A stretch of 19,554 nt of DNA. It comes from Solirubrobacter ginsenosidimutans (GTDB lineage: Bacteria > Actinomycetota > Thermoleophilia > Solirubrobacterales > Solirubrobacteraceae). Below, piece by piece: positions 1,261-15,023 of the stretch. The number at the start of each line of letters is the position of its first letter. Position 1 is the first letter of the stretch. The notes beneath the pieces were generated by a model. It did no database searches. It was not told the DNA's origin and was given only the letters and a program-made list of their open reading frames with translations. The translations under genes were made by a program, and so were the position numbers. The DNA is taken from positions 1 through 19,554 of the forward strand of contig NZ_JAPDOD010000091.1 in NCBI RefSeq assembly GCF_027587205.1. Reading direction: 5' to 3'.

Positions 1261-1998
1261 ATGCGCTACGTCGTGCTCGCACTCGCGGCGCTGCTGGTCG
1301 TCGTGGCAGTGGCGTTCGCGCAAGCTCCTCCGGAACCGAGCCAAACCGCCCCTGAGCCCACGACCACGCCGAACATCCCGCCGCCGGACGACACGCCGGT
1401 GGCCACGGATACGGCGACGCCCACCGAGACGCCCGTCGATCCCGGCACACCGCCCGACTTCGCCGCGGTGAACTGGCATCACTCGAAGGCGCTCGGCCGC
1501 CCCTTCCTGCGCGGACGCCTGGCCGACGGCACCCAGCTCCCCGAGCTCGGCGAGGACTTCTTCACCTGGGACCCCGTCTACAACCGCATCCCGAACCGCG
1601 CGTGGCGGCGCTGGGGAACGGACCGGTTGATCCGGACGGTCCTGACCGTGATCCACGCCTACCGCACCGAGCGCGACAGCGCCCAGCGCGTCGGGATCAT
1701 GGACCTGTCACGCCCGCACGGCGGCAAGTTCGGCAAGAACTACGGCGGGCTCGGCCACGCGAGCCACCAGAACGGCCTCGACGCTGACATCCTCTACCCG
1801 CGCAAGGACGGCACCGAGGCCCGCGCGCTGAAGCCGCGCGAGGTCGACCGCGAGCTCGCCCAGGATCTCGTCGATCGCTTCGTCAAGGCGGGCGCGGTGA
1901 AGGTCTTCGTCGGCCCGCACCTGCATCTCAAAGGCCCGAAGAACGTCGTCGTGCCGCTGATCTACCACGACGACCACCTGCACGTCCGAATCCGCTAA
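1261..1998 (+). CDS. Secreted MepA-like LAS metallopeptidase (M74-type murein endopeptidase)
   Basis: A 245-residue exported protein. Residues 1-20 form a signal peptide (cleavage near AFA-QA), and residues 22-66 form a Pro/Thr-rich linker. The C-terminal domain carries the hallmarks of the penicillin-insensitive murein endopeptidase family: SRPHGGKFG, then GHASHQNGLDAD (putative zinc ligands His169 and Asp176), and HDDHLHVR near the end (His239/His241). In MepA this H-x6-D ... H-x-H arrangement binds Zn and cleaves peptidoglycan cross-links. The linker suggests tethering or spanning outside the membrane. The ATG at 1261 is followed directly by the signal sequence and has no obvious Shine-Dalgarno. 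The TAA stop lies inside the CTAA repeat flanking the downstream palindrome. Exact peptide-bond specificity cannot be read from sequence. Confidence 0.85.
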   Translation: MRYVVLALAALLVVVAVAFAQAPPEPSQTAPEPTTTPNIPPPDDTPVATDTATPTETPVDPGTPPDFAAVNWHHSKALGRPFLRGRLADGTQLPELGEDFFTWDPVYNRIPNRAWRRWGTDRLIRTVLTVIHAYRTERDSAQRVGIMDLSRPHGGKFGKNYGGLGHASHQNGLDADILYPRKDGTEARALKPREVDRELAQDLVDRFVKAGAVKVFVGPHLHLKGPKNVVVPLIYHDDHLHVRIR

Positions 1999-2162
1999 GG
2001 CCAGTCACCGGAGCTCCGACGGATTCTGGCGGGGCCTCGACCGCCGCTGCCGGGCGGCGGCCGCCGCACACGTACAACCAGTATGCGAGCGGCGTCCGCC
2101 GCGAGCAGCGACGCCCGATGCAGCCACCAGCGATCCGCCGGAGCTCCGCCGACTGGCCCTAA
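1995..2162. repeat. Approx. 160-bp palindromic element flanked by CTAA direct repeats (MITE-like)
   Basis: Bases 1999-2075 and 2081-2158 are inverted copies of each other, leaving a 5-base loop AACCA at 2076-2080. Aligning the arms by hand gives 59 identical positions of 76, with three single-base gaps. The outer 26 bases differ at only three positions. The element is bracketed by CTAA at 1995-1998 and 2159-2162. The first supplies the TAA stop of the plus-strand peptidase, and the second supplies the TAG stop of the minus-strand glycosyltransferase. This looks like a small non-coding element inserted where the two stops overlapped, with a 4-bp target duplication. A TA duplication with ends AGGCCAGTC/GGGCCAGTC is equally compatible. 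The whole interval could also act as a long bidirectional terminator. No coding potential is recognised inside it. Confidence 0.8.
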
Positions 2163-3634
2163 CGGACTTCGTAGAGCGCCGCGGTGACGGTGTTCTTGGG
2201 CAGCGCGATCGTCGAGACGCCACCCACCCGCCGCAGCCGCGGTGAGGCCTCCAGCGCCGCGGTCCACTCCCGCGTCCGGATCCGCACCGCCCGCGCCCAT
2301 GGCGCCTGGGAGGGATGCGCGCCCGGCTCGGGGGTGACGATCAGCACCCGCTGGCCGCGATCCATCCGCGCGACCGCCGGCAGCAGTTCGGTCTCCGCCT
2401 GCCCCGCCCGCAGCCGCGCGAGCCCGTTGCGCCAGTCCGTCTGCCGCGGGTCGGGGACGAGCCCCATCGGCGTCCGGTAGACGACGCCCTCCGGCAGGTA
2501 GCGATAGAGCGCCGGCACCTGCTCCGGCTGTGTCGCGACGACCAGGTCACCCGGCCGGACCTGCGGCGCGATGCTCTCCGACACGGTCCGCACATTGCTC
2601 TTGACCGGCGGCGGCCCGCCGCTCATCACCCACACCAGCGCCACGCCCACCAGCGCCAGGAACGTCCACAGCCTGCCGCGCGAGACCACCGAGGCCAGCG
2701 CCAGCAGCACCGGCCCGAGCACGACCGCGAGGTAGCGCGTCGCCCACGCCGGCTGGATCTGCGAGCACACCCACGCCAGCGACACGGTCATGATCGCCAT
2801 CGCGGCCAGCACCCGCACCGCGCGATCGACCGGCGGGCGCCGGCGCAGAGCGAAGAACACCGCGACGACCAGCAGCGGCAGCGCGAGATAGCCGAACAGG
2901 CCGCCCGCGAACCCGAGCAGCAGCAACGGCGACGGCCGCTCTGCCCACGGGGCCGCGGTGTGGGCCGTCTGCGAGATCACGCTCGGCAGCCACGGCGCGT
3001 ACAGGAGCGCCAGCACGACGGCGAGCCGCGCGCCGTCGCCACCGCCGACGAGGCCGCGCCGCCAGAGCACCAGCCAGCAGACCGCCATCGACGCGGCCAG
3101 GAACAGACCCCAGGTGTGCGTGTAGAGCAGCAGCCCCAACCACAGCCCGAGCCACGCCACCTGTCGTCGCTCCCCGCGCACGAACGCCAGGGCGAACGCG
3201 GCGGAAGCCAAGATCGAGAGCAGGACGACGAGCGAGTACATCCGCGTCTCCTGCGCGTAATACGTCAGGAACGGCGCGCCCGCGGCACCCGCGGCGGCGA
3301 CGAAGCCCGCCCGCCGGTCGAAGACCCGCGAACCCGCCCAGAACGACGCGGGGATCGCCAGCAGCGCAAAGGCGAGCGAGAGCGCCCGGGTCGCCGCCTC
3401 GCCCTCGCCGAAGCCGAGCATCCAGACGTGCAGCAGCAGGTAGTACAGCGGCGGATTGCCGTCCTGGCCGAGGATCCGCGGGATGTCCGAGAGCGGGTGG
3501 GAAGCGATCCCGACCGCGATTCCCTCGTCGATCCAGTAGCCCGTCGACAGTGCGCCGACCCGCAGCGCGAGCGACAGGCACATCAGCGCCGCAAGCGCCA
3601 GCAGGGGTCCGTAGCTGACGCTCCTCCGAGTCAC
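2159..3634 (-). CDS. GT-C fold membrane glycosyltransferase (GT39/GT83, RgtA-D-like)
   Basis: A 491-residue polytopic membrane protein. After TM1 comes the acidic loop motif WIDEG (residues 34-38). It is followed by DGNPPLYYLLLHVW (58-71) and YYAQETRMYSL (about 124-134), features of the PMT_2/ArnT-like GT-C transferases that use polyprenyl-phosphate sugars outside the membrane. Around ten hydrophobic segments occupy residues 8-345. The remaining C-terminal 140 residues look soluble and extracytoplasmic. Start is GTG 3634. There is no good Shine-Dalgarno upstream; a GGAGGAG lies just inside the gene but has no usable start codon after it. It lies 52 bases downstream of the MscS-like gene on the same strand and may be cotranscribed. 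Its TAG stop is part of the CTAA repeat at 2159. Sugar and acceptor are unknown. Confidence 0.85.
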   Translation of the reverse strand: MTRRSVSYGPLLALAALMCLSLALRVGALSTGYWIDEGIAVGIASHPLSDIPRILGQDGNPPLYYLLLHVWMLGFGEGEAATRALSLAFALLAIPASFWAGSRVFDRRAGFVAAAGAAGAPFLTYYAQETRMYSLVVLLSILASAAFALAFVRGERRQVAWLGLWLGLLLYTHTWGLFLAASMAVCWLVLWRRGLVGGGDGARLAVVLALLYAPWLPSVISQTAHTAAPWAERPSPLLLLGFAGGLFGYLALPLLVVAVFFALRRRPPVDRAVRVLAAMAIMTVSLAWVCSQIQPAWATRYLAVVLGPVLLALASVVSRGRLWTFLALVGVALVWVMSGGPPPVKSNVRTVSESIAPQVRPGDLVVATQPEQVPALYRYLPEGVVYRTPMGLVPDPRQTDWRNGLARLRAGQAETELLPAVARMDRGQRVLIVTPEPGAHPSQAPWARAVRIRTREWTAALEASPRLRRVGGVSTIALPKNTVTAALYEVR

Positions 3635-4654: not shown

Positions 4655-5782
4655 ATGCTCAAGAACCTCCCCACTCGGCGGGTCGGCCTCACGGCCCTCG
4701 CCGCGCTCGCTCTGCTGCCCTCGGCCGCCATGGCCGCGCCGCACGCCAAGGCCAGCCAGGAAGCCGATCGGACGAGCGCCGCGGCCGAGAACACGATCAC
4801 CAAGGAAGCCTGGGCGGCCGGCGAGAAGCTTTACGGCGCGAAGGTCACGGCCGACCAAGCGCTGTACGCCTACTGGACGCCCGAGCGCATGAAGGCCTCG
4901 CAGTCGGTCGACAGCGCGCCGTTCCTGGAGCGTGCGTACAAGCAGTACCAGGCGACCGACGCCGAGCGCCAGGCGCAGGCCAAGCTCAACGAGGAGAAGG
5001 GCATCAAGCCGCCCGAGCAGGGCCCGGAGCTGCTCATCAAGCCCGACCTCGACGGCACCAAGCCCGCCGCCAAGGCCGCCGCGTTCAACCCGAACCTCGG
5101 CTCCAACCACCCGACCGCGCGCACCAACGGCAAGGTCTTCTTCAACCTCAACGGCAGCTCGTTCAACTGCTCGGCCTCGGTCGTGAACTCCGAGGGCAAG
5201 GACACCGTCTGGACCGCCGGTCACTGCGTCAACGCCGGCCAGACCAACGGCGCGTGGGCGACGAACTGGACCTTCGTCCCCGCGTATGACGACGACCTCG
5301 CCAACCCGCGCCCGTTCGGCACGTGGAGCGCCAACCAGCTCTGGACCAAGACGGCGTGGAAGAACAACGCCGACTTCGCCGAGGACATGGGCGTCGCGAT
5401 CATGAACACCCACAACGGCCAGCACATCGTCTCTCAGTTCGGCGGCCACGGCCTGCGCGCCAACGCCGGCAAGAACGTCTTCGAGTTCGCGTTCGGCTAC
5501 CCGGGCGAGTCCCCGTTCGACGGCGGCAACCTGTTCCGCTGCGCCGGTTCCTCCTCGCCCGAGTGGAGCTTCCTGTTCTGGAGCTCGGACACGATCAAGA
5601 TCGCGTGCGACATGACCCGCGGCTCGTCCGGCGGCCCGTGGCTGAACGGCTACGACGGCAACTACGGCTACCTCAACGGCGTCAACAGCCGCATCGACCA
5701 GATCGTCGGGCCGACCATCATGCTCTCGCCGTACTTCGACGACTCCGCGGTGTCCCTATACAACTCCACCCGCTTCCTCTAG
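4655..5782 (+). CDS. Secreted trypsin-like (S1 family) serine protease
   Basis: A 375-residue exported protein. A signal peptide covers residues 1-28 (arginines followed by GLTALAALALLPSAAMAA). A charged, helical propeptide-like segment runs to about residue 150, and a chymotrypsin-fold domain follows. The catalytic triad is readable: His190 in WTAGHC, Asp244 in AEDMGVAIM, and Ser325 in RGSSGGPW. Cys172-Cys191 and Cys296-Cys318 are likely disulfides. The N-terminal extension suggests synthesis as a zymogen. Start ATG 4655 fits the signal peptide; a purine-rich GGGAGAAG lies about 20 bases upstream, rather far for a ribosome-binding site. The gene end overlaps the next, lipoprotein-encoding frame by 25 bases. 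The substrate is unknown. Confidence 0.92.
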   Translation: MLKNLPTRRVGLTALAALALLPSAAMAAPHAKASQEADRTSAAAENTITKEAWAAGEKLYGAKVTADQALYAYWTPERMKASQSVDSAPFLERAYKQYQATDAERQAQAKLNEEKGIKPPEQGPELLIKPDLDGTKPAAKAAAFNPNLGSNHPTARTNGKVFFNLNGSSFNCSASVVNSEGKDTVWTAGHCVNAGQTNGAWATNWTFVPAYDDDLANPRPFGTWSANQLWTKTAWKNNADFAEDMGVAIMNTHNGQHIVSQFGGHGLRANAGKNVFEFAFGYPGESPFDGGNLFRCAGSSSPEWSFLFWSSDTIKIACDMTRGSSGGPWLNGYDGNYGYLNGVNSRIDQIVGPTIMLSPYFDDSAVSLYNSTRFL

Positions 5783-8790: not shown

Positions 8791-9399
8791 GTGGCCACCA
8801 TCGTCCTCGTCCACGGACTGTGGGTGACCCCGCGGTGCTGGGAGCACTGGGTCGCCCGCTACGAAGGCCAGGGTCACCGCGTGCTGGCGCCCGCGTACCC
8901 GGGTCTCGAGGGTTCCGTCGAAGCGCTGCGCGCCGATCCGTCGCCGATCGCGGCGCTGACGCCTTCGGCCACACTCTCGGCGCTGTCGGAGATCGTGCGC
9001 GCGCTGGATCGCCCGATCGTCATCGGCCACTGCTTCGGCGGCGTCCTCGCGCGCAGCCTGGCGCGTGACAGCGCGGCCGCGGTGGCATTGCACGCGTTGC
9101 CGGCGGCGGGTGCGGGCACTCCGGGAACCGTGTCGCTCTCACGCGAGCAGTTCCGCTACGCGCTGGCCAACTTCGACGGAGCGGAGGCGCTGTACGAGCG
9201 CTACGTGATCCCCGCGCCCGGCACGTGGGCGTGGGACGCACCGGCGGGGCGTGCGCTCGAGGTCGCGGGAGCGGAGGACAACCTCGCGCCGCGGTGCGGC
9301 GGCGCGACGGTGATGCCCGGGCGGACGCACCTGACGATCCTCCAGCCGGGTTGGGAGGCGATCGCCGACGAGGTCCTGGAGTGGGCGCTGAGCCGGTGA
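8791..9399 (+). CDS. Alpha/beta hydrolase with Cys in the nucleophile position, shortened form
   Basis: A 202-residue alpha/beta hydrolase beginning ATIVLVHGLWVTPRCWEHW, a start typical of an actinobacterial hydrolase family whose members usually run about 270-290 residues. The nucleophile elbow reads GHCFGG, so Cys81 replaces the expected Ser. The acid is probably Asp163 (AGAEDN) and the base His180 (GRTHLTILQPGW). The missing length falls after the elbow, in the cap or lid region, and before the acid strand. Cys nucleophiles occur in dienelactone hydrolases, so activity remains possible. GTG 8791 is the only sensible start. The stop overlaps the GTG of the following debranching enzyme (GTGA), indicating translational coupling. 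Confidence 0.85.
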   Translation: MATIVLVHGLWVTPRCWEHWVARYEGQGHRVLAPAYPGLEGSVEALRADPSPIAALTPSATLSALSEIVRALDRPIVIGHCFGGVLARSLARDSAAAVALHALPAAGAGTPGTVSLSREQFRYALANFDGAEALYERYVIPAPGTWAWDAPAGRALEVAGAEDNLAPRCGGATVMPGRTHLTILQPGWEAIADEVLEWALSR

Positions 9400-11609
9400 A
9401 CGCGCGGTGGGTGCGCGAGCGGCGCATCGAGCGGGTGGGGAGGACGGCGACGCTGCACACCGATCTCGGGTCGTGGCCGCTGCGGGGCGGCATCGTGCCC
9501 GACGAGGTGCCGGTGCGCGAGGTGCTCAAGGGACGCCTGCGGGTGGACGACGCGGCGGTGCAGATCGCGGAGGTGCTCGACGACCTCTACGACGCGAGCG
9601 ACGCGGAGCTGGGGCCGACGTGGCGCGGAGAGGTGCCGAGCGTGGCGGTGTGGGCGCCGACGGCGCGCCACGTCGCCCTGCGGCTGCGCCGCCTGCGCGA
9701 CGGCGACGAGTCGTCTCGCGACGTCTCGTCGCGAAACGTGACGTTGAACGACGACACATCTGGTGGCGAGCAGCGCGTCGCGATGCGCCGCGGCGACGAC
9801 GGCGTCTGGCGCGTGACCGGCGACCCCTCCTGGCGCGACGCCGAGTACGCGCTCGAGGTCACCGTCTTCGCGCCGACCGTCGACGCTGTCGTCACCAACG
9901 TCGTCACCGATCCGTACTCGCTCGCGCTCACCGTCAACTCGCGCCGCAGCCTGCTCGCGCGGCTCGACCCGCCGGCCGGCTGGCCGAAGCCGCCGCTCGT
10001 CCCGGTCGCGCGCGCCGCGATCTACGAGTTGCACATCCGTGACTTCTCGATCGGCGACACGTCGGTCCCGGAGGCGCATCGCGGCACCTATCTCGCCTTC
10101 ACCCACCTCGAGAGCGCGGGCATGCGGCACCTGCGCGCGCTCGCCGAAGCGGGTCTCACGACGGTCCACCTGCTGCCGTGCAACGACATCGCGACGATCG
10201 AGGAAGACCGGGCGAAACAGCGCGTCGCGCCGAGGCTCGAACACCACCCGCCGCACTCGCCGCTGCAGCAGCGCGCGATCGGCAGGATCCGCGACCGCGA
10301 CGGGTTCAACTGGGGCTACGACCCGCTGCACTATTCGACGCCCGAGGGTTCCTACGCACACGACCCGGACAGGCGCACATACGAGTTCCGCGAGATGGTC
10401 GCCGCGCTCAATGCGATCGGCCTGCACGTCGTGCTCGACGTCGTCTACAACCACACGCCGAACGCCGGCCAGGACCCGAAGTCGATCCTGGACCGCATCG
10501 TCCCCGGCTACTACCACCGGCTCTCGGCGACAGGCGAGGTCGAGAACTCGACCTGCTGCGCGAACACCGCGACCGAGCACCGGATGATGGAGAAGCTGAT
10601 GCTCGACTCGCTCGCGACGTGGGTCGGCCAGTACCGCGTCGACGGCTTCCGCTTCGACCTGATGGGCCACCACACCAAGGCCAACCTGCTCAAGGTGCGC
10701 GAGCGGTTCCCCCACCTGCAGCTCTACGGCGAGGGCTGGAGCTTCGGCGAGGTCGCCGGCGACGCGCTGTTCGTCGCCGCCTCGCAGCGCAACATGGTGC
10801 ACACCGGGATCGCGACGTTCGACGATCGCCTGCGCGACGCCGTCCGCGGCGGCGGCCCGCACGACAACGATCCCCGTCACCAGGGCTTCGCGACCGGGCT
10901 CGCCGACGCGCCGTCCAGAGCGCTGCAAGAAGCCCAGGAAGAAGTCATGCGCGGCCTCGCCGGGACCGCCGACCAGATCGCCTACGTCGACGCGCACGAC
11001 AACGAGACCCTGTTCGACGCGCTCGCGCTCAAGCTGCCGCGCGCGACCACGATGGACGACCGCGTGCGCATGAACACGCTCGCGCTCGCCACGGTCACGC
11101 TGTCCCAGAGTCCCTGTTTCTGGCACGCCGGCACCGACCTCCTGCGCTCTAAGTCACTTGACCGCAATTCCTACGACTCAGGCGACTGGTTCAACCGCGT
11201 CGACTGGACCGCCACCCACTCCACGTTCGGCTCCGGGCTGCCGCCGCGCTGGGACAACTTCGAACGCTGGAAGTACCTGCGCCCGCTGCTGAAGGATCCG
11301 AACCTCAAGCCCCAGCCGCACCACATCCGCACCGCCCGCGACCGCGCCCTCGAGCTCTTGCGCATCCGCGCCTCGACCCCGCTCTTCGGCTCCGCCGAGG
11401 TCACCTTCGAGAGCGGGGCACCCGGCGTGATCGTGATGGTCCTCTCGGCCGAGAGCGTCCTGATCTTCAACGCCACCCCGCACGCCACCAAGCAGACCGC
11501 GCACGCGAGCGCGACCCAGCTTCACCCCGCGCTGGCCGAACGCGAAGCGACCTACGCGGACGGTGTCTTCACGGTCCCGGCGCGGACCGTCGCAGTGTTC
11601 CTTCCGTGA
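9396..11609 (+). CDS. pulA: Pullulanase/limit-dextrinase-type debranching enzyme (GH13)
   Basis: A 737-residue alpha-1,6-glucosidase of the pullulanase/limit-dextrinase type. An N-terminal beta domain (about 1-205) precedes the GH13 barrel. The barrel shows YELHIRDFSIGD (from 210), NWGYDP (305), DVVYNHT (348-354), STCCANTATEHRMMEKLMLD, DGFRFDLMGHH (nucleophile Asp421), LYGEGW (acid/base Glu446) and DAHDNETLFD (Asp535). The STCC...TEHRMMEKLM phrase is distinctive for this subfamily. The C-terminal beta domain ends in RTVAVFLP. No signal peptide is present, so it probably acts on glycogen or imported dextrins in the cytoplasm. It is shorter than secreted pullulanases, which carry extra N-terminal modules. 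GTG 9396 overlaps the preceding stop. The open frame extends upstream, but that part is an Arg/Gly-rich shadow of the hydrolase. Residues 105-127 look inserted. Confidence 0.9.
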   Translation: MNARWVRERRIERVGRTATLHTDLGSWPLRGGIVPDEVPVREVLKGRLRVDDAAVQIAEVLDDLYDASDAELGPTWRGEVPSVAVWAPTARHVALRLRRLRDGDESSRDVSSRNVTLNDDTSGGEQRVAMRRGDDGVWRVTGDPSWRDAEYALEVTVFAPTVDAVVTNVVTDPYSLALTVNSRRSLLARLDPPAGWPKPPLVPVARAAIYELHIRDFSIGDTSVPEAHRGTYLAFTHLESAGMRHLRALAEAGLTTVHLLPCNDIATIEEDRAKQRVAPRLEHHPPHSPLQQRAIGRIRDRDGFNWGYDPLHYSTPEGSYAHDPDRRTYEFREMVAALNAIGLHVVLDVVYNHTPNAGQDPKSILDRIVPGYYHRLSATGEVENSTCCANTATEHRMMEKLMLDSLATWVGQYRVDGFRFDLMGHHTKANLLKVRERFPHLQLYGEGWSFGEVAGDALFVAASQRNMVHTGIATFDDRLRDAVRGGGPHDNDPRHQGFATGLADAPSRALQEAQEEVMRGLAGTADQIAYVDAHDNETLFDALALKLPRATTMDDRVRMNTLALATVTLSQSPCFWHAGTDLLRSKSLDRNSYDSGDWFNRVDWTATHSTFGSGLPPRWDNFERWKYLRPLLKDPNLKPQPHHIRTARDRALELLRIRASTPLFGSAEVTFESGAPGVIVMVLSAESVLIFNATPHATKQTAHASATQLHPALAEREATYADGVFTVPARTVAVFLP
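9716..9734. repeat. Perfect hairpin inside the debranching-enzyme gene
   Basis: An 8-bp perfect stem, TCGCGACG / CGTCGCGA, with loop TCT lies inside the coding sequence. It falls in a stretch (about 9708-9776) that codes for Ser/Arg/Asn/Asp-rich residues 105-127 and uses codons rare elsewhere here (TCT, ACA, TTG, CGA). It may be a small palindromic insertion kept in frame, or chance in GC-rich DNA. Confidence 0.55.
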
Positions 11610-12504
11610 GCTCCACGCCGATCGGGTCGACGATCTCGAAGGAGAGGATCCCCTCGGGCTCCTGATTGAGGAAGCCGACGAAGCACCACGTGCCGTCGCG
11701 GCGCTGGACCAGCGGCGCGGCGAACAGCTTCGGCTCGCCCTCGAACGGCTTGGCGTTCGCGACGTCCCACGGCCCCAGCGGCGAGTCGCCGAGGACGTAC
11801 CAGGTGCTGAACGGCCGCGGGTGGGCCTGCTCGTCCGGGTGGCAGGTGAACAGCAGCAGCCATTGCCCGTCGACCTGCCGCACCTGCATGACCTCGAACT
11901 GCCCGAAGATCGACGGCTCGGTCAGCGGCGCGCCGAGTCGCCAGTTGACCATGTCGTCGCTGCGCGCGTGGGCGATCACCCCGTCCGCCAGCCGTTCGGC
12001 GTGCAGGTCGCGGGCAGTGATGTACATGTGCCACAACCCGTCGTGGTGGAAGACGAACGGGTCGCGCCAGGTCTCGCTCGCGCCGGAGCCGTCGCCGAGC
12101 ATCGTGTACCAGCACGGGTCGGGCTCGACCAGCGGCTCGGTCGCCACCCGCCGCCAGGTCATCAGGTCGTCGGACTCCGCCAAGCCGATCCGCTGGTCGC
12201 GGACGCCGCGGCCTTCGGAGTTGAGCGCCGTGTAGTACAGGCGCCACACCCCGTCGTCGGAGCGCGCGACCGACCCGGTCCACAGCGCCAGATCGTCGAA
12301 GCCGGACGCCGCCGGCCCGAGCGCGTCCGCGTGGACGTCCCACTCGACCAGGTCCAGCGAGCTCGCGTGGCCGATCCGCGCGGCCTCGTGCCGCAGCCGC
12401 GGATCTCGCACCGCGCGCGGCGCCTTGAGGAAGAACAGGTGGTAGCGCTCGCCGTCGTCGGCGATCCAGCTGTCCCAGATCCAGTCCTCCCGCGAACTGA
12501 GCAC
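11569..12504 (-). CDS. GH32-like (GH32/GH43 clan) beta-propeller glycoside hydrolase
   Basis: A 311-residue protein with repeated DDGxW/SxDLxxW blades of a five-bladed propeller. Candidate catalytic acids appear in the usual order: Asp11 in WIWDSW (nucleophile), the RDP motif with Asp148 in ETWRDPFVF, and Glu204 in FGQFEVMQV (acid/base). This order matches fructosidase-type GH32 and related GH43 enzymes. There is no signal peptide. Start is taken at GTG 12504; a TTG at 12513 is also in frame. Everything further upstream is Arg/Ser-rich antisense of the neighbouring gene. No ribosome-binding site is evident. The 3' end overlaps the convergent debranching gene by 41 bases. The substrate (fructan, sucrose, arabinan or other) cannot be read. 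Confidence 0.8.
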   Translation of the reverse strand: MLSSREDWIWDSWIADDGERYHLFFLKAPRAVRDPRLRHEAARIGHASSLDLVEWDVHADALGPAASGFDDLALWTGSVARSDDGVWRLYYTALNSEGRGVRDQRIGLAESDDLMTWRRVATEPLVEPDPCWYTMLGDGSGASETWRDPFVFHHDGLWHMYITARDLHAERLADGVIAHARSDDMVNWRLGAPLTEPSIFGQFEVMQVRQVDGQWLLLFTCHPDEQAHPRPFSTWYVLGDSPLGPWDVANAKPFEGEPKLFAAPLVQRRDGTWCFVGFLNQEPEGILSFEIVDPIGVELTEGTLRRSAPGP

Positions 12505-12505
12505 G

Positions 12506-13231
12506 GTGGACAATGATGCCGATGGACGCGCATCTGCGGCGCATCGAACGCGAAGCGGGGCGCACGAGGCGCTCGCGTTCCGCGCGGCGGAGGGGTTCGA
12601 GCCGGTCGCGCTCTCCCCGGTCAGCCCGCTCGGGCTCAACGCGATCCTGGGGCGGATCGACCAGAACAACGTGCTCTCGACGATCCGCAACACCGAGGTG
12701 CTCGCCGACCCGACGGCCGCGCTCGCGCTCGAGGCCGCGGTCCGCCGCCGCAGGGGCGAGGACACCGTCCGCCTCTGCGCCGCCTGCCGCGTCCTGCGCC
12801 TGCAGCCGGTCCCCGACGTCCCGGGGTTCACCCAGCACTTCGAGCTCTTCGCCCTCGTCACCGCGGGTCGCTCACAGGCCTCCTACGGCTTCGAGATCGA
12901 CGCGCTGCGCGAGCACATCGCCGTCTACCGGCGCCTGCTCGCGGCCGCCGGCGTCGACGACTACGTCGTGCGGCTCACGGACGCGCCGCCGCAGGTCCTC
13001 GAGGCGCTGCCCGGCGTCGTGGAGGACGCCGGGCGAACGCAGGGCCGCGGCTACTACGACGGCATGCTGCTCAACATCACCGCCACTGACCGCGAGGGCA
13101 ACGCCGTCGGCCTCGCGGACGGTGGGCGGACCGACTGGACCCAGCGGCTGCTCTCCAACCGCAAGGAGCGGCTGCTGACCAGCGGGATCGGCCTCGGCCT
13201 GATGGCGGAGCGTTTCCCTACCGCAGCGTGA
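12506..13231 (+). CDS. Stand-alone HisRS/HisZ-like class II aminoacyl-tRNA synthetase core
   Basis: A 241-residue protein resembling the catalytic core of histidyl-tRNA synthetase or HisZ. It has a motif-1-like GFEPVALSPVSPLGLN (30-45), then VLADPT (66-70), and a motif-2-like strand pair RLCAACRVLRLQ...GFTQHFELFALV (89-118). EIDALREHIAVYRRLLAAAGV (130-150) parallels the helix of HisRS. Next come GRGYYDGMLLNIT (180-192) and ADGGRTDW (204-211), and a motif-3-like SGIGLGLMAERF (226-237). No anticodon-binding domain follows, so aminoacylation of tRNA is unlikely; a regulatory or amide-forming role is possible. GTG 12506 opens the frame. ATG 12513 in another frame encodes a more natural N-terminus, see the frameshift finding. 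It overlaps the convergent delta-60 gene by 14 bases. Confidence 0.65.
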   Translation: MDNDADGRASAAHRTRSGAHEALAFRAAEGFEPVALSPVSPLGLNAILGRIDQNNVLSTIRNTEVLADPTAALALEAAVRRRRGEDTVRLCAACRVLRLQPVPDVPGFTQHFELFALVTAGRSQASYGFEIDALREHIAVYRRLLAAAGVDDYVVRLTDAPPQVLEALPGVVEDAGRTQGRGYYDGMLLNITATDREGNAVGLADGGRTDWTQRLLSNRKERLLTSGIGLGLMAERFPTAA

Positions 13232-15023
13232 CCTTCACCGCGGATTTCGTGGACCCCGAGGTGATGTGCAGCGTGTAGTGGCCGGCGCGGACCTTCCCGC
13301 GCAGCGCGACCTTCGCGCCACCGGTTCCGGTCGCGACGGTCCTGCCCGCCTTCGCCAGGCGCAGCGAGACCTTGCCCTTGGCCTGCTTGGTGGTGCAGCT
13401 GACCTTGTTCTTCTTCTTGCCGGTCAGCTTGCAGGAGACGGAGAGCTTCTTGGCCGCGGCGCCGGGGTCGCCCTTCGGGCCGGCCGGACCCTGCGGGCCC
13501 GCCGCGCCCGGTGAGGCGTTGACCGTCGGACCAGGCTCGCCCTGCGGGCCGGCGTCGCCCTTCGGGCCTGCCGGGCCGGCGGGACCGGCGACCGCCGGCG
13601 GCAGATCGGCGCGCACGAGCACGGCCTGGTCGAGCGTCGCGTCGGTGCCGGCCCGGTAGCCGGCGGCGACGACCTTCGTCCCGTTGGACACGGTCGTCGA
13701 TCCGAAGAAGGAGTCGGCGGTGCCGCCCAGGTCGACCTGCAGAGCGGATTCCAGCGCCGAGCCGTCGGGCTTGATGGTGAGGATCAGGCCGTCCAGGTCG
13801 GCCGGCGGCGGATTCGTGCCGCCGGCCTGAGGCGGAGCGGTGCTGCCGACGGTCACGATCCGGCCGTCGCCGAGCACGGTCAGGTCGCGGGCGCGGTCGG
13901 CGCCGTTGATGCGGTTGTACGTGAACAGGCCGTTCTGGGCGAATGTCAGGTCGTAGGTGCCGTTGGCGTTGAAGCGATACACCACGACATCGATGCCGTT
14001 GGCGGGGGTCGTCGAGCGGCCGCCGTAGCCGGCGAGGACGTACTTGTCGCCCTGCGGCGCGATGTCGTAGACCTCGGCCGAGCCGTTCGGGGCGGGGCCG
14101 CCGACCTCGGCCGTCGCGACGCCGCCGGTGCCGAACGTGGCGTCCGCCGTGCCGTTGGCGTTGTAGCGGAAGAGGAACGGGCGGGTCGTGCCGCCGATGC
14201 CGGTGCCGTAGGAGGTCGCGACGACCTTGCCGTCGGCCTGCACCAGGCCCTGCCGCGGGTTCTCGCTGACCCCGGCGTTGCGGGTGATCGCGATGCCGCC
14301 CGAGCCGAACGCCGGGTCCGGCTCGCCGTCGGCGGCCTTGAGCTGGACGATGGCGATGTCGCGGTCGGCGCGCGCCGCTTCGCCGGTGTCGAGCCCCTTG
14401 GACGCGACGACCACGATCTCGCCGGTCGGGCGCAGCATCAGGCCGTAGGACTGGTCGGTCGTCTGGCCGCTCAGCGTCGCCGACGGCCCGCCGTTGGAGA
14501 GGTCGATGCGCTTGACGCCGCCGGTGCCGAACGTCGGGTCCGGCGTGCCGTCGGCGTTCAGGCGGGCGACGTAGACGTCGATGTCACGGCTGTCGGGCTT
14601 GCCCGCCGCGGGCGGCGTCTCGGCCTGTCCCGAGATGACGATCTTGCCGTCGGCCTGGACGACGATGCCACGCGCGATCTCGGCGGTCCCGGTCGGTGCC
14701 GTGCCGGACGGTGGCGCTGCGAACGGGCCGGTGACGACGTTGACGATCGCCTTGCCGTGGTCGCCGAAGCCGTCGACGAGCTCGCCGCCCGCGTCCACCC
14801 GCGTGACCACGAACGCCCGGTCGGTGCCGGCGACGGTCGTGTAGCCGACGTTGTAGGTCCCGCCGCCCGGGGCACGGGTGGTGTTCTGGTAGCGGTCGCT
14901 CAGCGGCGACAACGACGTGAACGCCGTGCCGTTGATCCCGAAGGTGTCGTCCAAGCCGGCGTAGGCGTTCGGCGCGATCGCGAACGTCCCCGCGACGGCG
15001 AGGGCTCCTGCGAGTTTTCTCAT
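13218..15023 (-). CDS. Secreted delta-60-repeat protein with collagen-like stretch
   Basis: A 601-residue exported protein. A signal peptide covers residues 1-22 (cleavage AYA-GLDD). Six delta-60-type units follow, marked by DxTFGxxG-like motifs (LDDTFGINGT, VDGFGDHGK, PDPTFGTGG, PDPAFGSGG, ADATFGTGG, YDLTFAQNG) and by strands such as QADGKIVISG. Residues 480-524 are a collagen-like Gly-X-Y run (GPAGPAGPKGDAGPQGEPGP, then a second block), interrupted once by TVNASP. The last 77 residues are Lys/Thr-rich with two cysteines and look like a small beta-sandwich. The repeats probably form a beta-propeller on the cell surface. The Shine-Dalgarno GGAGGA sits three bases before ATG 15023. Its gene is divergent, 45 bp from the next exported protein. 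The molecular function is unknown. Confidence 0.88.
   Translation of the reverse strand: MRKLAGALAVAGTFAIAPNAYAGLDDTFGINGTAFTSLSPLSDRYQNTTRAPGGGTYNVGYTTVAGTDRAFVVTRVDAGGELVDGFGDHGKAIVNVVTGPFAAPPSGTAPTGTAEIARGIVVQADGKIVISGQAETPPAAGKPDSRDIDVYVARLNADGTPDPTFGTGGVKRIDLSNGGPSATLSGQTTDQSYGLMLRPTGEIVVVASKGLDTGEAARADRDIAIVQLKAADGEPDPAFGSGGIAITRNAGVSENPRQGLVQADGKVVATSYGTGIGGTTRPFLFRYNANGTADATFGTGGVATAEVGGPAPNGSAEVYDIAPQGDKYVLAGYGGRSTTPANGIDVVVYRFNANGTYDLTFAQNGLFTYNRINGADRARDLTVLGDGRIVTVGSTAPPQAGGTNPPPADLDGLILTIKPDGSALESALQVDLGGTADSFFGSTTVSNGTKVVAAGYRAGTDATLDQAVLVRADLPPAVAGPAGPAGPKGDAGPQGEPGPTVNASPGAAGPQGPAGPKGDPGAAAKKLSVSCKLTGKKKNKVSCTTKQAKGKVSLRLAKAGRTVATGTGGAKVALRGKVRAGHYTLHITSGSTKSAVKVTLR
13452..13586 (-). 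repeat. Collagen-like Gly-X-Y coding segment
   Basis: This part of the delta-60 gene encodes residues 480-524, two blocks of Gly-X-Y triplets containing GPKGDAG and GPKGDPG, separated by a short non-triplet segment. Such runs in bacterial surface proteins can form trimeric triple helices that act as stalks. Here the segment links the repeat domain to the C-terminal domain. Confidence 0.85.

Follow-up and report, generated by a model that had tools for sequence, protein, structure and literature searches.

A probable mobile hairpin between convergent stop codons in Solirubrobacter ginsenosidimutans

In Solirubrobacter ginsenosidimutans, two convergent genes meet at a long hairpin whose two bases coincide with their stop codons. 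The locus raises the question of what kind of sequence can occupy such a position with both genes intact. It lies in a 19,554-nucleotide stretch of contig NZ_JAPDOD010000091.1 (the window). The hairpin is probably one copy of a non-autonomous mobile element of the Solirubrobacteraceae, about 166 bp in length, that inserts at CTAR and leaves stop codons intact.

Structure and insertion site of the window hairpin

The hairpin element occupies window positions 1996–2161 (166 bp; extent from the envelope of a profile alignment) and is defined by this alignment, its fold and the empty site in relatives. It is a copy of the subfamily designated family A. The gene on its left (1261–1998, plus strand; ORFs and Pfam) encodes an M74 penicillin-insensitive murein endopeptidase-like protein. 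The gene on its right (2159–3634, minus strand; ORFs and Pfam) encodes a PMT_2-like glycosyltransferase that scores 25.6 bits, just below the Pfam cut-off of 26.1. Both genes end in a CTAA tetramer, read here on the plus strand. The left CTAA (1995–1998) contains the peptidase stop codon TAA (1996–1998). The first three bases of the right CTAA (2159–2162; sequence and ORFs) form the minus-strand stop codon TAG (2159–2161) of the glycosyltransferase gene. The CTAA bracket overlapping both convergent stops, as described in the initial annotation, is therefore confirmed.

The element folds into a single hairpin of 62 base pairs (60 Watson–Crick) with a five-base apical loop (−113.6 kcal/mol), in which the outermost pair joins positions 1999 and 2158. 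When six bases of flank are included at either end, the fold reaches −119.7 kcal/mol (z = −10.1), and none of 200 dinucleotide shuffles is equally stable. The fold confirms the earlier view that the whole intergenic interval is one imperfect hairpin with a five-base loop. A gapped alignment of the arms contains 61 identities in 82 columns; the figure given in the initial annotation was 59 of 76. Because the arm identity is only 61/82, the palindrome is long but imperfect, and its earlier description as near-perfect does not hold.

Alignment columns of related copies, converted to window positions by hand, divide the hairpin into paired blocks (plus-strand coordinates; covariation). Helix 1 is formed by the left (1997–2005) and right (2152–2160) outer arms, which differ among copies and show double changes at 8 of 8 pairs. 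Helix 2 pairs the left arm at 2009–2028 with the right arm at 2128–2148 (double changes at 16 of 19 pairs), and helix 4 forms the inner stem from positions 2045–2065 and 2091–2110. The conserved apex (2069–2087; also located by an apex-word search) consists of a stem and the five-base loop. Its common form is CACGTACCACCAGTATGCG, from which the window copy differs by one mismatch. Three profiles detected no second hairpin copy within the window. No Rfam family matched above its gathering score, and the best matches, MIR918 (53.1 of 268 bits) and MIR3454 (23.7 of 142), were far below it.

The closest relatives of the neighboring peptidase are found in Solirubrobacter; identity to the S. soli protein is 86% in the best-matching segment. 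The junction of the peptidase and glycosyltransferase genes in S. soli reads CGCTAACGGAC, and its one CTAA supplies both stop codons, matching the convergent pair that had been reconstructed by removing the element together with one CTAA. Relative to this junction, the window carries 162 bp plus a second CTAA, 166 bp in total. A single CTAA without the element is also present in S. phytolaccae, so that the single-CTAA alleles expected of an empty site exist in two species. Short element-free junctions are observed in Solirubrobacter sp. CPCC 204708 (with CTAG) and S. taibaiensis (with TGA), and an uninterrupted gene junction thus replaces the element in four related species. In S. pratensis, a different gene follows the peptidase. 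Insertion of the element in the lineage of the window is the simplest reading of these junctions.

At a second insertion site, that of one copy in the draft genome G025, the relatives have variable junctions and no clean empty site: a 19-nt mini hairpin in G021 and other short junctions in G020, G022 and G024. In G023, the right flank had no match at the threshold used. Short hairpins of about 13–106 nt with similar tips were also seen at other loci (L208–L215, L367, L368 and L376), and on visual inspection several coincide with stop codons. These short forms may be remnants of deletion, seeds or minimal units.

Dispersal, target site and stop codons

The apex word, with up to two mismatches, occurs at 27 places in four of the seven Solirubrobacter genomes, and the reversed word, at the same tolerance, occurs at none in the seven. 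Searches with the window copy, a second subfamily and profiles yielded 51 distinct Solirubrobacter copies, including that of the window, which fall into two main subfamilies, A and B. Fifty of the 51 copies are 164–167 bp long and share the same end points; the remaining one measures 201 bp. A covariance model built from 19 family A copies, for which E-values are rough, finds matches in 30 of 146 family genomes at E ≤ 0.001. Full-length matches occur in 27 of the 146, since G022, G026 and G098 carry partial matches only. These are mostly 160–170 bp, with some of 94, 153, 203 or 225 bp. Second copies, on which the initial annotation had made its proposal depend, are present in all seven congeneric genomes, which represent at most six independent ones because G003 and G006 are nearly identical in their matches. 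Virus contigs contain no exact match to the 18-base apex word. No such family is described for Solirubrobacter or Thermoleophilia among the titles and abstract openings listed by searches of open-licence literature. A protein-coding reading of the hairpin, judged from alignments, was rejected: the copies of the G025 burst differ by single-base indels, which argues against it.

One copy matches at least 40 places in G025 (44 matches, of which four repeat a place on the other strand; 40 candidates scored). Contig ends truncate at least 11 of these places, the expected fate of a repeat in a draft assembly. Five of the 26 copies recovered are identical, and the multiplication in this genome is therefore recent. 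The dispersed copies, the empty sites and this burst support the earlier classification of the hairpin as a non-autonomous mobile element or dispersed palindromic unit.

CTAG borders the hairpin on both sides in 19 of 26 copies in G025, 7 of 8 in G057, 4 of 7 in G029 and 3 of 6 other copies. In Solirubrobacter, with the window left out, only 11 of 52 copies have this arrangement. One further copy (L119) has identical tetramers (TCAG twice), 10 of the 52 are consistent with a duplicated TA and not with a duplicated tetramer, and 30 fit neither the 4-bp nor the TA rule; either many copies are therefore old or the site rule is looser. The window, with CTAA twice, fits a four-base duplication, and the CTAG flanks of recent copies are compatible with a duplication of either 2 bp (TA) or 4 bp. 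The best reading of the usual target is CTAG, with CTAA at the window, that is, CTAR. The CTAA target first proposed thus holds for the window locus but not for the family, where CTAG is usual.

CTAG is scarce in these genomes: 18 sites were observed in 121,915 bases from six Solirubrobacter loci (L001, L002, L003, L005, L006 and L018), against 94 expected from trinucleotides. Among CTAG sites away from the locus ends in six loci selected without regard to copies, 10 of 18 are apparent gene stops. For a comparison with the hairpin copies, gene calls came from a GC-frame heuristic applied to copies and background by one common rule. In a set of 106 copies, which omits L174 (201 bp), L271 (Ns), L288 (a duplicate of L127), and L355 and L366 (cut or low score), 64 have a gene TAG stop at the base, including 8 with such a stop at each end; the corresponding figure for CTAG sites elsewhere is 94 of 218 (p = 0.004). 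When only copies flanked twice by CTAG are counted, the proportion with a gene stop at CTAG rises to 35 of 44 against the same background (Fisher p = 1e-5). CTAG targeting alone explains much of the gene-end placement, and the stop excess in the whole set is modest; selection against gene-breaking insertions could supply what remains. The idea that the element targets stop sites is thus borne out by a stop excess at copies, but the preference is mostly what CTAG targeting alone gives.

The base that follows TA is usually G at both element ends, and a TAG stop is therefore retained on either side. Because CTAG is rare and often a gene stop, the element can spread without breaking its neighbors. 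In the proposed course of events, the element, apparently without genes of its own, would enter CTAR, usually CTAG, and leave a short target on both sides. Its ends would usually continue the sequence such that an interrupted stop codon stays a stop codon and the flanking proteins keep their ends. In this little-studied soil lineage, many genes thereby gain a large hairpin at their 3′ end.

Pairing of the arms

The hairpin varies in its outer arms and inner stem and is conserved in the apex and the left mid-block. The outer arms differ in sequence between copies and keep their complementarity inside each copy. Element ends past CTAGT are not conserved, whereas the apex and core are. The outer 26 bases, offered earlier as a terminal inverted repeat, are accordingly among the most variable parts, and it is pairing, length, core and apex that are conserved instead. 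In family A, double changes are observed at 32 of 53 consensus pairs, and 92.4% of cells are paired. The 138 double-changed cells compare with a shuffle mean of 45 (0 of 500 shuffles reach 138) and with 16–26 in slid controls; relatedness inflates these counts, though the slid controls retain it, and the sequences counted also served to derive the structure. Folding of 99 copies (the 106-copy set minus L352, which contains Ns, and six copies from G021–G024) gave z < −3 in 93 of them (25 shuffles each), with a median of 60–65 pairs across the hairpin middle in every group.

In G025, 75 sequence pairs with less than 9% divergence contain 183 one-sided and no two-sided changes, and two-sided changes are confined to more distant pairs. 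The 37 family B sequence pairs below the same divergence, however, contain 65 one-sided and 19 two-sided changes. In both comparisons, the sequence pairs share ancestry, and the counts are not independent events. The G025 pattern fits a requirement for pairing in lineages that move on, followed by decay after insertion.

Paired changes could also arise without selection on pairing if replication switches template from one arm to the other (palindrome correction). This mechanism is published (PMC8794818) and is compatible with a mobile hairpin. It would suit the large excess of double Watson–Crick changes over wobble states and the two-sided changes in family B, a pattern that is compatible with arm-to-arm copying. 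The lack of two-sided changes among the 75 close G025 pairs speaks against it, and it is a possible, though not the favored, source of the paired changes.

Alternatively, host selection could favor the hairpin as a two-way terminator or a 3′ RNA element that is rarely duplicated and not mainly mobile, with its pairing maintained by selection on RNA. The frequent position at gene ends, the very stable fold and the strong covariation would all be expected from such an element. As in intrinsic terminators, the hairpin is GC-rich and directly follows convergent stops. Unlike intrinsic terminators, it has 62 pairs, is homologous between loci and lacks a U-run past either end in the window, where the flanking sequence was read directly. 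Moreover, the burst of near-identical copies is at odds with rare duplication, and the one-sided changes in G025 indicate that pairing is not tightly kept after insertion. In family A, mismatches in paired columns comprise 31 A·C and 11 G·T (two columns in which G·T is commonest were excluded), and there is no wobble signature on the modelled strand. The opposite strand would show such a signature, so selection on RNA may still act there. On balance, an element maintained chiefly as a terminator or RNA structure is improbable.

With the mobile hairpin as the preferred reading, a strong hairpin would be placed in both convergent transcripts as a side effect of insertion, perhaps ending or protecting them, and a two-way terminator role of this putative transcript hairpin is plausible. 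Insertion would be performed by an enzyme acting in trans, which would need the hairpin (its structure, core or apex) and not a long terminal sequence. More speculatively, the family might represent a class of transposable element that is recognized by its folded hairpin (length, core and apex), targets CTAG, rebuilds stops and moves on only from well-paired copies. We regard such a class with some doubt; if it exists, gene ends would be a safe harbor for the element. Because recent copies in the burst genome are directly comparable with old copies elsewhere, the family is a natural experiment on whether long hairpins stay paired through mobility, through a function of the host RNA or through copying from arm to arm.

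Search for a mobilizing enzyme and comparison with known elements

A transposase with matching ends, which the first description had proposed looking for, was sought in the related draft genomes and was not found among the matches listed; among these matches, no gene was seen between two hairpin ends. Single end matches were considered as possible autonomous elements. By eye, eight such regions contained only short hairpins or partial ends, and eleven further regions contained full or short hairpins, partial copies or lone ends with no recognizable partner.

The hairpin could be a MITE of the conventional sort, derived by internal deletion from a DDE insertion sequence (IS701 or IS5 type, with a YTAR target) and moved by the transposase of the latter via shared terminal inverted repeats. 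The target is consistent with this origin. In G025, an IS701-family element (L383:1329–2743; NF033540, 415.6 bits) has CTAG on both sides and occupies the CTAG that closes a hairpin copy on the right, and in G029 an insertion sequence is likewise flanked by CTAG on both sides. IS701 is reported to have 4-bp repeats (PMC2266710) and IS5 the target YTAR (PMC10359306). A 4-bp target duplication is also possible for the hairpin, but these insertion sequences carry a transposase, and the termini of the local IS701 are not shared. After CTAG, the G025 element begins with TAGGACTTCG, whereas the hairpins begin with TGG, TAC, TGC, TGT and others; judged by sequence, the element shares its target, not its termini, with the hairpins. 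Further, the hairpin ends vary, no autonomous insertion sequence with these ends was found among the matches listed in these drafts, and PF01609 and PF13358 had no match in the copy-rich drafts G002 and G007. A MITE origin is thus conceivable and somewhat doubtful. An IS630 gene was also considered as the source of the mobilizing enzyme. A search of six genomes gave a single such gene, with no perfect 16-base inverted repeats in its surroundings; IS630 does not track the hairpin copies and was rejected.

A RAYT/HUH enzyme could instead mobilize the hairpin as an element of the REP/REPIN kind, recognizing it in single-stranded form and cutting beside the tetranucleotide. The hairpin shape, the basal tetranucleotide and the absence of conserved long ends would suit such an enzyme, and Y1_Tnp genes, 13 in all and RAYT-like (L216–L228), are present in six of the seven Solirubrobacter genomes. 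Neither profile A nor profile B found a hairpin copy within about 1.5 kb of any of the 13. A search of the other family genomes (drafts) detected Y1 in 3 of the 23 that carry model matches and in 5 of the 23 that do not, and none was found in the burst genome G025, also a draft. RAYT was rejected as the mobilizer, since the Y1 genes are neither linked to the copies nor track them, and we consider this route quite unlikely. A short recurring stretch close to the end of the gene is common to some of the RAYT-like translations and could be a repeat of their own.

REP and REPIN hairpins often lie downstream of genes or between convergent genes and carry a tetranucleotide tag (PMC3733652, PMC3116915), and REP units are described as 20–40 bp with a GTAG or CGTC tag (PMC3733652). 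The hairpin here differs from them in its size (166 bp), in having CTAG at both ends and in lacking a linked RAYT. The nearest system by size and habit is YPAL/RU-2 of Yersinia, which consists of dispersed palindromes of about 167–168 bp with known empty and filled sites, whose targets span or adjoin dyad symmetries (PMC2229807, PMC2759123); the likeness is one of description. YPAL has duplications of 3 to 26 bp and internal inverted repeats (PMC2229807), whereas the hairpin here has a CTAR target and pairing up to its ends.

ERIC, RUP and Correia elements are likewise small non-autonomous hairpins. ERIC and Correia have conserved ends, whereas the outer arms here vary and covary, and no insertion sequence with the same ends was found. 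RUP inserts at TA, and its ends match those of IS630-Spn1 (PMC2229807). TA lies inside CTAG, and a RUP-like TA duplication is therefore possible for the hairpin. We place the element among the dispersed palindromic mobile elements of bacteria. Small palindromes of this dispersed sort are familiar, but the nearly fixed length, changing yet covarying arms, CTAG target and stop-preserving ends are unusual.

In agreement with the initial annotation, no transposase was recognized among 12 ORFs of the window scanned with Pfam and two more scanned with NCBIfam only. Other genes of the window were also noted. A 375-residue protein (4655–5782, plus strand) without a Pfam or NCBIfam match resembles, by eye, a secreted trypsin-like serine protease. 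A pullulanase-type α-1,6-glucosidase (9225–11609, plus strand) adjoins a GH32-like hydrolase (11569–12861, minus strand), and the convergent ends of the two ORFs overlap. A protein with delta-60/DUF5122 β-propeller repeats (13218–15023, minus strand) also shows, toward the C-terminus, a weak collagen-like match.
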